In this document: in pieces, positions 7,473 to 56,768 of the stretch
How the letters are laid out: each line of letters starts with the position of its first letter
Position numbering within the stretch: the stretch's first letter is position 1
Assembly: GCA_032355985.1 (NCBI GenBank)
Contig: JAUKVZ010000001.1
Coordinates: 834,344-898,343, forward strand
DNA length: 64,000 nt
DNA from: Sarcodiotheca gaudichaudii
Lineage: Eukaryota; Rhodophyta; Florideophyceae; Gigartinales; Solieriaceae
Direction: 5' to 3'
Made by a program: the position numbers and the translations under genes
The notes under the pieces: generated by a model
Databases searched by the model: none
What the model saw: the letters and a program-made list of their open reading frames with translations, nothing else
Told to the model about the DNA's origin: nothing

Positions 7473-8891
7473 TTAGTGAACGACTATCTCTCCGAGCATC
7501 GGCGAAATGTCATTCACGATCGAGTCCAGTTGCTCCTGCGTTCGCGCCTCGGCGTTGAGGCGAAGCAGCGGCTCGGTGTTGCTCTTGCGCACGTTGCACC
7601 ACCAGCCTTCCCTCTCGAAGCAGTCGATCGTCAGGCCATCCAGATCGTCGACCTCGCCGCGCTCGCCGTATGTCTCTTCCAGAGCCGCCAGCGCGCCATC
7701 CTTGTCTTCGACGTTGAAGTTGATCTCGCCGGATTGCGGATACACGGCCATCGGGGCGATGACCTCGCTCATCTTTTTCCCCGATGCCGCCAGCGCCGTC
7801 AGGGTCGTCGCCATGGCGATCAGGCCGGAGTCGCAGTTGAAGTTGTCCCGGAAGTAGAAATGACCGGACAGTTCGCCGCCGAACACCGCGCCGGTCTTCG
7901 CCAGCGCCGCCTTCATAAAGACGTGTCCCACGCGGCTGCGCACCGGCTTGCCGCCTGCCTTGCGGATGGCTTCTTCGACGGACTTGCTTGAACGCAGGTC
8001 ATACGCGATCGCCGAGCCGGGATCCTTCTCCATGAAGTAAGACGCCAGCCACGCGGTGAGATGATCGCATCCGACAATCTCGCCCCGTTCATCAACGATC
8101 ATGCAGCGATCGCCATCGCCGTCAAAGCACAAACCCAGATCCGCCTTTTCTTTACGCACGGCGTCCTGCAGATCCCGCAGGTTCGCCTTCACGAGCGGAT
8201 CAGGCGGATGCACGAACTCTCCCTTGTCGTTCTCGAAGTAGAGCTCGACGATTTCGAGGCCTTCGATGCGATCGCCGCCGCGGCCGAAGACCTTCGGGAC
8301 TGACGTGCCCGCCATGCCATTGGAGGCGTCGACAACGACCTTCAGCGAGCGGCCGCCGAGATCGAGGAACGAAAGCACATGCTGGGCGTAGGCATCCCAG
8401 AGATCGCGCTCTTCGACGCGGCCCTGCTTTTCCGAGATGGGAGTCTTGCGCGTCTTGTCAGCCATCGCGGAGCGCCGTCGGATCTCATCGAGACCTGTGT
8501 CGGCGCCGGCCGGCTTGGCGTAGCGCTTGGAGATCTTGAACCCGTTGTAGTTCGGAGGATTGTGGCTTGCGGTCGTCATGACGCCGCCGGCGCAATCCAG
8601 GTGATTGACGGCGAAGTAGACGAAGGGCGTATCGACGATGCCGACATCGATCACGCTGGCGCCCGCATCATTGATGCCTTCGATGAGGCTCTCGGCGAGG
8701 CCGGGGCTGGAGAGGCGCATATCCCGCCCCACGATCAGGTTCTGCAGCATGGGGGTGCGATCACCATCGCCGGCCGCCTCTTCGAGCAGGTACAGCGCGC
8801 AGCCGGCGCCGATGCGCCAGGCGAGCGCCTCATTGAGCGGATCGGGGTAGGTGCTTCGGACGTCGTAGGCCTTGAAGACATTGCCAAGCAT
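7473..8891 (-). CDS. Phosphomannomutase/phosphoglucomutase family phosphohexomutase
   Basis: Alpha-D-phosphohexomutases interconvert hexose 1- and 6-phosphates for polysaccharide and sugar-nucleotide synthesis. The protein has the phosphoserine loop TTASHNPP, the metal loop DGDGDRC, the sugar-binding loop GGELSGHF, and the phosphate-binding loop VRKSNTEPLLRLN, in the usual four-domain order. I start at ATG 8891 (MLGNVFKAYDVR), giving 472 residues. The longer in-frame opening to 8993 adds a tail that does not resemble the family. The exact substrate (mannose or glucose) cannot be fixed from sequence alone. Confidence 0.88.
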   Translation of the reverse strand: MLGNVFKAYDVRSTYPDPLNEALAWRIGAGCALYLLEEAAGDGDRTPMLQNLIVGRDMRLSSPGLAESLIEGINDAGASVIDVGIVDTPFVYFAVNHLDCAGGVMTTASHNPPNYNGFKISKRYAKPAGADTGLDEIRRRSAMADKTRKTPISEKQGRVEERDLWDAYAQHVLSFLDLGGRSLKVVVDASNGMAGTSVPKVFGRGGDRIEGLEIVELYFENDKGEFVHPPDPLVKANLRDLQDAVRKEKADLGLCFDGDGDRCMIVDERGEIVGCDHLTAWLASYFMEKDPGSAIAYDLRSSKSVEEAIRKAGGKPVRSRVGHVFMKAALAKTGAVFGGELSGHFYFRDNFNCDSGLIAMATTLTALAASGKKMSEVIAPMAVYPQSGEINFNVEDKDGALAALEETYGERGEVDDLDGLTIDCFEREGWWCNVRKSNTEPLLRLNAEARTQEQLDSIVNDISPMLGEIVVH

Positions 8892-37413: not shown

Positions 37414-38313
37414 TCAGGCGTTGGCCTGACGCCGCAGTTGCTCGCGCTGCACTTCCGTGACGTACCTGCAGATGCGATCAACGATGAAGCGTTTGTGACT
37501 GGATGCCGGCGAAAACTCGAACGCCACACCGAGGTAACCGCGCTGTTCGCTATCGCGATGCGTATGCACGATGCGCCCCGCCACGCCGATGGGCGCCGGC
37601 ACCTGCGGCTGCAGATCGATGTTCATCCAGACAAGTGACTGATCATGCGCCGAAACCTGTTCGGTCGGCTCGACGACCAGTCCGACGCCGCCGCCGCCGA
37701 TATTGACCATCGCGCTCCAGAACGAAGGCCCCACCTCGGGCGTGACGAGTGTGTCCTCAGGCTCTCCGATGCGCGCGATGACATGGCCCTCTTCGAGCAT
37801 CTGAATGCGTGTCTGCACGCCGCGTTCGGCGGCCGAGATCGTCATCGGATCGAGCACGGGCCAGCACAGCACGCGCGGAAGGATCAGGCCCGCTGTCGAG
37901 ATTCGATAGAAGGATCGTCGCTGGCAGCGCTCCACCTTCTTCGGCGCTGCGATGCGAATCGCGCGAACCGACTTGTTTCGATTGAGCTGCTTCAGCGTGT
38001 CCCCAAGCTTGCGCGTGTGGAACATCCAGCGATTCTGTCCGACCGACATGACGCCGATGAGTTCGACGTTGTCCTGGATGGTCATTGGCTCGCCGAGCGT
38101 CGTGGGGCGCTCGATGATGATCTCGTCCTCAGTCAGGTCGAGGATGCGCACGCGCCAGATCAGATTCTTGGCGACGACATCTTCCGCACCGCTCGCGCTG
38201 GCGCCGCCCTCTTCGAACGCGCACGCCATCGCAATCTCCAGCGCGCCGTTTCGATCGGCGATCTGCTGCAGGCTGCGGCGCCAATGTTCGGTTCTGCTTC
38301 TGGCTGCAGGCAC
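37414..38313 (-). CDS. PilZ-domain protein, YcgR-like
   Basis: PilZ domains bind cyclic di-GMP; YcgR-like proteins couple it to motility or surface behaviour. The N-terminal ~110 residues fit a YcgR-type beta domain (MTIQDNVELIGVMSVGQNRWMF). The PilZ part starts with RRSFYR (132-137), the RxxxR arginine motif, followed by NIGGGGVG (204-211) in place of the usual D/NxSxxG. GTG 38313 with GGGTGGG upstream is the likely start (299 residues). Unlike classical YcgR there is a ~40-residue insertion between the two motifs. No flagellar genes are nearby. Confidence 0.75.
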   Translation of the reverse strand: MPAARSRTEHWRRSLQQIADRNGALEIAMACAFEEGGASASGAEDVVAKNLIWRVRILDLTEDEIIIERPTTLGEPMTIQDNVELIGVMSVGQNRWMFHTRKLGDTLKQLNRNKSVRAIRIAAPKKVERCQRRSFYRISTAGLILPRVLCWPVLDPMTISAAERGVQTRIQMLEEGHVIARIGEPEDTLVTPEVGPSFWSAMVNIGGGGVGLVVEPTEQVSAHDQSLVWMNIDLQPQVPAPIGVAGRIVHTHRDSEQRGYLGVAFEFSPASSHKRFIVDRICRYVTEVQREQLRRQANA

Positions 38314-54935: not shown

Positions 54936-55110
54936 CCGGGCCCTCTCCAGCGGTGGATCGAGTGGTCTCGCGAGGCGCCGGGCTGCATGGGCCGGGCGAC
55001 TGCCGCCCGCAGCATGACGCAGGCGGCGTCTCGCGAATCCCCTAGTCTATCGACACTTCGCCCCGGGCGGACGAGCCCGGGAAACAGACTGGGACGTCCC
55101 TTTCCCCGGC

Positions 55111-55116
55111 TATACT
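55111..55116 (+). promoter_or_regulatory. Possible -10 element for tRNA-Arg
   Basis: TATACT sits 78 bases before the tRNA 5' end in the otherwise featureless 55018-55193 spacer. A clear -35 was not found, so this is a weak candidate. Confidence 0.3.
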
Positions 55117-55193
55117 GGCGACGCTCGACACGCAGGCCAGTCGCCTTCGATCGTGCGACAATCAGGATTGACAGGACGCAAGTCGCGTCTTGT

Positions 55194-55198
55194 GCGCT

Positions 55199-55230
<32 letters not shown>

Positions 55231-55581
55231 TCGAAAGAGGGGCCCGGTCCGGTGACGGATCGAGGCGAACCGGGTGAATTCGGGGAAGCCCTCCCTCGTG
55301 ATGTGGATCGCGAGCGGGTAATCCCGAGCCAAGCTGTCGGCGGGGCCGGTCACATTCGAATCGAAGTGGCCGCGGCCGGCAGAAGGTGTAGAGGCCAGCG
55401 GGTGAGCCGCCCCGGCAATACCCCCGCGTAGGGATGACTCGCGCCGAGTCATTCCGAAGCGCCCGGCGACCTTCATCTGGCGTGTATGCGCCGATGAAGG
55501 CCGATGAGATGGTCCAGCCCGCCGGGAAACCGGTGTGATCGCTGAAACCGTAGGTCGGAGGTTCGAGTCCTCCCGGGCGCG
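55194..55581 (+). tRNA. tRNA-Arg(CCU) interrupted by a group I intron
   Basis: Exons 55194-55230 and 55545-55581 (37 bases each) join to a 74-base cloverleaf. The acceptor GCGCTCG pairs with CGGGCGC, one U-G wobble included, with a G discriminator. The D arm is present. The anticodon stem ACGGT/ACCGT holds loop TTCCTAA with anticodon CCT, and the T stem GGAGG/CCTCC holds TTCGAGT. The intron enters directly after the third anticodon base, the site known for the Agrobacterium tRNA-Arg(CCU) intron. CCA is not encoded. Confidence 0.95.
55231..55544 (+). ncRNA. Group I self-splicing intron (IC3-like) in tRNA-Arg
   Basis: The 314-base intron shows the group I conserved core. P1 forms from exon TCCT plus intron TC, a GAAA tetraloop and GAGGGG (55237-55242), giving a U-G pair at the 5' splice site. 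P2 pairs CCCGGT (55243-55248) with ACCGGG (55269-55274). P4 pairs TTCGGG (55279-55284) with CCCGAG in the Q element AATCCCGAGCC (55320-55330). R is GTGTAGAGGCCA (55386-55397) and S ends TGGTCC (55510-55515); together they form P7 with a bulged A, the guanosine-binding site. A long P6 stem and a GAAA-capped hairpin (55522-55533) follow the usual order. The intron ends in G. No homing endonuclease ORF is seen. Confidence 0.93.
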
Positions 55582-55595
55582 TTTTTCGGATCCGC

Positions 55596-56768
55596 TCAGG
55601 CGCCCGCGTTCTCGGGCCGCATGTGGGTCAGGCGGATGTCATCACCGAATCGACGTGTGTTGATGAGCGCCCAGCGCGACAAATCCTTCATGGATGCGAT
55701 GCCGGCGTCGTGCGCAATCGCGGCGCCTGCCGTATCGCCCAGCATCATCGGCGCGACGTAAATCCGCGTCTCATCGACGAGTTGCGCATCGAAGAGCGCC
55801 GCGAGCAGGCCGGGGCCGCACTCGGTCATGACATAGCTCGCATCGAGTTCAGTGGACATCCACGCAAGCGCCGCTCGCAGATCAATGCGATCGTTCAATG
55901 CCGGCAGCGCCACCACTGACGCACCCACTGCTTTCAGCGCCTTCGCACGTTTTGCGCCTTCGGCTGAAGCGAGATTCGTCTCCGTGCACAGAATCGTCAG
56001 GGGCGCGGCGCTCGCGCTGTGGCACAACTTTGAATCTACGGGTGTTCGAAGCGATGAATCGATCACGACGCGATGCGCCACTCGTCGCACTCTGCGCACG
56101 CCGCGCGCTGTCAGGAGTGGATCATCGGCGAGGACTGTGCCGGCGCCGGTCAGGATGGCGTCCACGCGGGCACGCAGCCGGTGTACATCGAGGCGCGAGC
56201 GTTCGTTGGAGATCCATTTGGAATCGCCTGTGCGTGTCGCCAGGCGCCCATCGATCGTCTGAGCCCATTTGGCGATCAGCCAGGGCTTTCCCGTCTCGAC
56301 CCGCTGCCGCCAGGGAAGGGAGAGCCGCAGGGCGTTTGGGGAGGCGTTGCTGAACTCCACGGCCACGCCTGCCGCTCTCAATCGCTCGGCGCCGCCACCG
56401 GAGGTTTCATGCGGGTCTGGCGTCGCGATCACCACGCGGGCCAGCCCGGCCTCGAGAATCGCTTCGGCGCAAGGCCCCGTCTTGCCAGTGTGATTGCATG
56501 GCTCGAGCGTGACCCACATCGTCGCGCCCTTCGGATCGACACCTTGCCTGCGGCAGGACGCGAGCGCCTCGACTTCTGCATGAGCCCCGCCAAAACGGCG
56601 ATGATGGCCCGCGCCGATGATCTCGACCCGACCGGCGCCTTGCCGTCCGATGATGCAGCCGACGAGCGGATTGGGTTCAACATCGCCGGCGGCGCGAGTG
56701 GCGAGTCTGGCCGCCAGATCGAGCATTCGTCTATTCAATCGCGCATCGGGCGCCGCAGCATTGCTCAT
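55596..56768 (-). CDS. ribD: Bifunctional riboflavin deaminase/reductase RibD
   Basis: RibD carries out deamination and reduction of the pyrimidine intermediate in riboflavin synthesis. The N-terminal deaminase has zinc ligands in GGAHAEVEAL and LEPCNHTGKTGPC. The C-terminal reductase has KWAQTIDGRLATRTGDSKWIS and a late TECGPGLLAALF. Length 390 is standard. Start ATG 56768 overlaps the stop of the RNase HII-like gene as ATGA, suggesting coupling. The gene ends 14 bases beyond the tRNA-Arg 3' end, on the opposite strand. Confidence 0.93.
   Translation of the reverse strand: MSNAAAPDARLNRRMLDLAARLATRAAGDVEPNPLVGCIIGRQGAGRVEIIGAGHHRRFGGAHAEVEALASCRRQGVDPKGATMWVTLEPCNHTGKTGPCAEAILEAGLARVVIATPDPHETSGGGAERLRAAGVAVEFSNASPNALRLSLPWRQRVETGKPWLIAKWAQTIDGRLATRTGDSKWISNERSRLDVHRLRARVDAILTGAGTVLADDPLLTARGVRRVRRVAHRVVIDSSLRTPVDSKLCHSASAAPLTILCTETNLASAEGAKRAKALKAVGASVVALPALNDRIDLRAALAWMSTELDASYVMTECGPGLLAALFDAQLVDETRIYVAPMMLGDTAGAAIAHDAGIASMKDLSRWALINTRRFGDDIRLTHMRPENAGA

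Follow-up and report, generated by a model that had tools for sequence, protein, structure and literature searches.

The question raised by this locus is why a tRNA-Arg(CCU) gene in the 64,000-nucleotide stretch of DNA analysed here (the window) is split in its anticodon loop, what the intervening sequence is, and how it came to be there. Our preferred answer, to which we give a probability of roughly 0.9, is that the gene carries a group I ribozyme with an IC3-like core and a P7.1/P7.2 extension, which would have been handed down chiefly by vertical descent in a single planctomycete family, being lost several times and probably transferred once.

A split tRNA-Arg(CCU) gene and its recognition

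Read from the sequence, positions 55194-55581 of the window form a tRNA-Arg(CCU) gene interrupted by 314 nt:

55194..55230, + strand: 5' exon of tRNA-Arg(CCU), 37 nt, through position 36, ending in ..TTTCCT
55231..55544, + strand: group I intron by RF00028 match and covariation, 314 nt, with a final G
55545..55581, + strand: 3' exon of tRNA-Arg(CCU), 37 nt

The joined exons comprise 74 nt, which ARAGORN folds as tRNA-Arg(cct), placing the insertion point between positions 36 and 37 of the anticodon loop. In 23 relatives identified below, the 5' exon has the same length (38 nt in one) and an identical end. When the unspliced window was searched with ARAGORN, and with Rfam at curated cut-offs, only other tRNAs were reported and nothing at 55194-55581. 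A permissive Rfam search of 55100-55700 (601 bases), by contrast with those cut-offs, aligned the intron to RF00028 from end to end (model positions 1-253; 45.0 bits, E 2.9e-10), and this was the sole RF00028 match in its own genome (4.54 Mb) among the 27 of 50 candidates scored.

The curated Rfam cut-off for RF00028 is 50 bits, a threshold for searching and not a property of the RNA. It is reached by 0 of 24 introns (the window and its 23 relatives), and a permissive search of 20 relatives gave a match at E<=0.01 in just three. Since these homologous introns all fall below the cut-off and yet covary strongly, we hold that, for sequences of this family, it is set too strictly. The original prediction of a group I intron inside tRNA-Arg(CCU) is therefore upheld by the whole-length alignment, the rejoining of the exons and the covariation in 24 sequences, even though the outcome that it named as a refutation, a covariance score under the threshold, did literally occur (45.0 against 50 bits). 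Judged by its fold, 55231-55544 is a group I intron. The longest internal frame with an ATG, GTG or TTG start encodes 59 amino acids, which by length excludes an endonuclease-sized frame. A promoter and terminator scan found no promoter, and none was expected.

The fold is conserved across an intron family

To score the secondary structure we used an alignment of 24 rows, the window and 23 relatives; a further carrier, G732 (L096), is left out since its split gene ends at a contig end. The introns are 283-349 nt long, all following TTTCCT and all ending in G. In the window the core elements lie as follows:

55227-55232 with 55237-55242, + strand: P1, loop GAAA, splice-site U55230.G55239
55243..55265, + strand: P2, with a GNRA loop (GTGA)
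55270-55276 with 55460-55466, + strand: P3
55279-55284 with 55323-55328, + strand: P4, nearly invariant, from the RF00028 alignment
55289-55291 with 55316-55318, + strand: P5, nearly invariant, from the RF00028 alignment
55329..55386, + strand: P6 and P6a
55393-55397 with 55510-55514, + strand: P7
55470..55500, + strand: P8
55520..55535, + strand: P9, with a GAAA loop

Over the 64 named pairs that were scored, 96.7% of cells were paired, against 32-51% for slid versions of the structure, a comparison that favours the true register because the structure was derived from the window sequence. Double-sided changes were found at 22 pairs and in 74 cells, compared with 8.8 and 18.8 in shuffles (0/500). 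Such compensatory changes, seen throughout the intron family, show that the fold is under selection. They include 6 of 9 pairs in P2, 7 of 8 in P6a, and the two pairs next to the splice-site U.G on the intron side of P1. The U.G itself is present in all 24 rows, as is a GNRA loop on P2; P9 ends in a GNRA tetraloop in 18 rows, in a pentaloop in five and in a larger loop in one.

The P3-P7 pseudoknot and the P4-P6 core have their pairs in nearly all 24 rows. None of these rows has a double-sided change in P3, P4, P5, P6, P7 or the base of P8, so the changes say little about pairing there: six of the seven P3 pairs are invariant in 24/24, P7 is paired in 99.2% of cells, and the two basal pairs of P8 are unchanged throughout. 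P7 is the guanosine-binding helix of group I introns. One relative, L082 (G283), has G-G in place of a G-C pair in P7, a result that speaks against uniform function. The elements first proposed are all there: P1 with its U.G (U37.G46 in split-gene numbering), P2, P4, P7 and a G at the 3' end of the intron.

Were the intron to act as this fold suggests, the transcript would adopt the P1-P9 core, P1 would present the 5' splice site as U.G, and P7 would hold guanosine and later the terminal G. Two transesterifications would then remove the intron, leaving a 74-nt tRNA reading AGG, and the P7.1/P7.2 extension would probably pack on P7-P3-P8 and stabilise the core.

Carriers, empty sites and the history of the intron

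Comparison of the neighbouring RibD with genome contigs yielded six loci, four of which are named Planctomycetaceae or Planctomycetota; five RibD loci (L056-L060) had no Rfam match at E<=0.01. Taking the phylum to which one RibD relative belongs, we then scanned 392 genomes with RF00028, using strict filters and scoring five candidates per genome, and obtained matches in 11 genomes (12 loci), of which G177 and G100 have the same tRNA-Arg(CCU) intron. A BLAST search with the whole split gene across 400 genomes of G100's order found 24 with a match extending into the intron, and 23 of these belong to the same family as G417, represented by 163 genomes. Introns of the tRNA-Arg(CCU) family served to build a covariance model of the P7-P8 domain, which recovered the same 23 of 163 family genomes and no further ones. 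In the 23 readable carriers the tRNA, the site after TTTCCT and the final G are the same. The suggestion of a probable planctomycete host thus agrees with the RibD relatives and with the carriers, which belong to the phylum of one of them.

Empty sites are also common: among the matches listed, at least 27 genomes have adjoining exon matches and no intron, and ARAGORN called an intact tRNA-Arg(cct) in 34 of the 40 loci examined. Six more family genomes with longer 5' exon matches were considered as sources of divergent introns and rejected, as the loci concerned (L131-L136) proved to be tRNA-Arg(tcg) genes, with a tRNA-Arg(tct) close by in four cases. An order that offers 24 carriers alongside many empty sites makes it possible to trace how such a ribozyme evolves, is lost and is transferred.

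The host tree was built from RecA. Of 52 genomes queried, 46 matched; G438, G399, G645, G477 and G488 matched and were left out, and G541, G513, G679, G467, G524 and G752 had no match. The tree holds 41 genomes (40 and the window), 22 carriers and 19 empty, the latter confirmed by ARAGORN in 15 cases and by adjoining exon matches only in G741, G705, G190 and G626. The sample is non-random, empty genomes having been picked for clear exon matches. On this tree carriers are clustered, requiring 5 changes compared with 14.0 for shuffled labels (0/500), and the window pairs with G417 (100/99).

Could this clustering reflect the recent spread of a mobile intron, transferred horizontally time and again within the order? 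Several results lean that way: at least four of the five changes are forced by well-supported branches, a single carrier clade is rejected (p-AU 1.8e-46), and G473 is a carrier outside the main group. Moreover, the window gene order (RNase HII-like, RibD, tRNA, SRPBCC-like and LOG-like, names assigned by eye) recurs beside the tRNA in L074 (G417) only, among 42 loci with ~1.5 kb flanks, and with just one match synteny was set aside as a guide. At depth, intron and RecA distances agree only weakly (for 21 genomes, Mantel r 0.28, p 0.006; for the 16 left after thinning of near copies, r 0.22, p 0.03), and in the intron tree 3 of 21 forks are starred and most are weak. Against repeated mobility, the window intron has no endonuclease-sized frame, intron and RecA point to the same nearest neighbour for 12 of 21 genomes, and neither blastn of the split gene in phage and plasmid collections nor one exact 22-base pattern in viral contigs gave a match. 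On balance we regard repeated transfer as unlikely. We read the data, with moderate support, as mainly descent with losses, together with a probable transfer involving G473. The matter of inheritance or acquisition, left open in the original prediction, is partly answered in this way by the RecA tree and by the weak agreement between the two trees.

When the same 392 genomes were searched with the P7-P8 domain model, ten were positive: seven carriers, G382, G193 and G096. The strict RF00028 scan had found two of those seven carriers, a comparison in which the domain model has the advantage of having been built from them. Since no copy reaches the Rfam cut-off and RF00028 is positive in 2 of 7, surveys of tRNAs and introns may overlook this family and conclude that the CCU tRNA is lacking. 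In G096 the match to P7-P7.1-P8 lies at C139:2531-2626 (50.0 bits).

Hosts were read for the 12 RF00028 loci except L065, L073 and L068. By this reading, L062, L063, L064 and L066 are, like the window intron, group I introns of the anticodon loop. L062 (G227) and L063 (G070) score 64.1 and 56.1 bits with RF00028, above the Rfam cut-off; their host reads as tRNA-Arg(UCU), with the same site after position 36. The host of L066 (G193) is probably tRNA-Asn(GUU), with the intron seemingly inserted after position 35 and before position 36; between P7 and P3 this intron reads as having two hairpins, one capped by GAAA and the other long. Two further loci, L069 (G089) and L070 (G205), seem from their flanks to be group I introns in 23S rRNA genes; the L069 match spans 657 nt and may include an endonuclease gene. 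Plasmids gave no blastn match to L063 or L064.

An extension between P7 and P3

After the 5' strand of P7 and before P3 closes with its 3' strand, the window intron has an insert of 60 nt, containing three helices:

55398-55402 with 55423-55427, + strand: P7.1, conserved outer stem between P7 and P3
55406-55409 with 55413-55416, + strand: P7.1a, inner stem, separated from P7.1 by an internal loop UGA / AAUACC
55431..55455, + strand: P7.2, hairpin of 11 pairs, from single-sequence folding

The locus had at first been described as having a P8 expanded by two extra hairpins. Both stems exist; the ten-pair stem, however, is P7.2, and the other is P8 itself. As the insert precedes the 3' strand of P3, an expanded P8 is ruled out in favour of a P7.1/P7.2 extension. 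That description also passed over a second conserved hairpin beside P7.2, namely P7.1 at 55398-55427.

Across the 24 introns the insert measures 32-96 nt (median 58), and in every one its folding energy is lower than the average for shuffled versions (z -1.2 to -3.9, median -2.5). P7.1 and P7.1a are paired in 99.1% of cells, against 22.9-60.9% for slid controls, with one pair broken in two rows. Three of their nine pairs have double-sided changes, amounting to eight cells versus 1.0 in shuffles (0/500); the count of further pair types does not exceed that in shuffles (331/500). At the position of P7.2, single-sequence folding gives a hairpin in every intron except L094 (23 of 24), with a sequence that varies among them.

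Where does this place the intron among the group I subclasses? Bacterial IC3 tRNA introns are found in Azoarcus tRNA-Ile, cyanobacterial tRNA-Leu and Agrobacterium tRNA-Arg(CCU), and the site of the last is presumably identical to that in the window. From what is generally known of these IC3 introns, the present family has in common with them an anticodon-loop site, small size, the P1-P9 order, a GNRA L2 and a mostly GNRA L9. In IC3 introns, GNRA L2 and L9 contact P8 and P5, and both loops are GNRA in the window. The family differs from them in the 32-96 nt between P7 and P3, mostly forming P7.1/P7.2, where a plain IC3 intron has no such extension.

A 2015 paper (PMC4498298) describes the IA2 ribozyme Td as resembling two IC3 ribozymes, Syn and Azo (Synechococcus, Azoarcus), and as differing from them in a P7.1/7.2 extension located between P7 and P3. 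Because this extension is what separates Td from IC3 ribozymes in that paper, by the same criterion the tRNA-Arg(CCU) intron would combine an IC3-like core with an IA-like extension, with its covarying P7.1, and would not be a plain IC3 member. Of the original subclass assignment, the resemblance of the core to IC3 holds and plain membership does not. The likeness to group IA2 introns such as T4 td (PMC4498298) is in P7.1/P7.2; a difference is that the host here is a tRNA gene.

It is improbable, in our judgement, that this is simply an IC3 intron of the Agrobacterium/Azoarcus type, with extra hairpins that serve no function and reflect drift at the periphery. Such drift would accord with the variability of P7.2 and its absence in L094, and, by reading, with the likeness in core and site to L063, which has no extension; L062 and L067 likewise read as having no P7.1, and L063 and L067 have weak domain-model scores (21.0 and 23.6 bits). 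Drift fits poorly with the strong conservation and double-sided changes of P7.1, and with the domain-model matches of introns in other tRNAs, L064 (in a tRNA with CAU; 48.3 bits) and L066 (44.7 bits), which by reading also have an extension between P7 and P3. With its IC3-like core and its extension, the intron makes the line between IC3 and IA less sharp. A bolder version, which we put forward tentatively and at somewhat less than even odds, is a distinct group I subgroup bridging IC3 and IA: an IC3-like core with a fixed P7.1 architecture (outer and inner stems separated by a UGA/RAUA internal loop, and a C-rich loop) that makes a specific contact, tertiary or with a protein, retained through vertical inheritance for as long as one bacterial family has existed and occurring also in other planctomycete tRNA genes.

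In the open-licence literature searched, among the papers listed, titles and the beginnings of abstracts name no planctomycete tRNA group I intron, and words beginning planctomycet or planctomyc do not occur in the main text, as searched, of PMC3984707, PMC8450103, PMC11915505, PMC4390854 and PMC5733544. In the portions available, PMC5733544 mentions tRNA-Arg(CCU) introns and PMC11915505 reports tmRNA introns in 21 phyla. Within that literature, the present family adds a host phylum for tRNA group I introns.

Decoding of AGG

It had been supposed that AGG decoding may depend on splicing. This is weakened by a tRNA-Arg(UCU) gene (L017) in the same genome, where tRNA-Arg genes ACG, CCG, TCG and TCT are also found on large contigs (63 of 245 candidates scored). 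A tRNA-Arg(UCU) could read AGG by wobble, and since the gene is present, the reading of AGG need not depend on splicing. One pattern match on contig C56, around 8523-8556, is a candidate second CCU tRNA. AGG is rare in ten window genes selected by eye, accounting for 10 of 3002 codons overall and for 10 of the 234 that encode arginine.

The rarity of AGG, the tRNA-Arg(UCU) gene, the RF00028 score below the cut-off and the relative without the P7 G-C pair (L082) could together be taken to mean that the intron is degraded, splicing lost and the tRNA a pseudogene with AGG read by tRNA-Arg(UCU), yet we consider this very improbable, given that the window intron retains its core elements, the joined exons make a good tRNA and compensatory changes across the family indicate selection on the fold.

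Other DNA in the window and the assembly

At 38197-38283 of the window, on the - strand, ARAGORN calls a second tRNA-Ser(cga), absent from Rfam results at cut-off and a possible pseudogene.

The bin that contains the window (G000) also includes organellar DNA. Contig C21 (L054, L046, L049) is mitochondrial, with cob-, cox1-, cox2-, cox3-, sdhB- and rps3-like frames (named by eye) when TGA is read as W; C18 (L043, L047) is assigned to mitochondria from its tRNA set alone. On both contigs, what is called 'tRNA-SeC(tca)' is probably mitochondrial tRNA-Trp(UCA), and the two mitochondrial tRNA sets suggest two algae. Contig C10 (L039) is plastid-like, with rbcL-like and cbbX-like frames (by eye) and a tmRNA; C16 (L050) has a tmRNA and a tRNA set similar to that of C10, and C13 (L040) and C43 (L041) were judged by tRNA sets alone. 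The planctomycete was probably sampled together with red algae.
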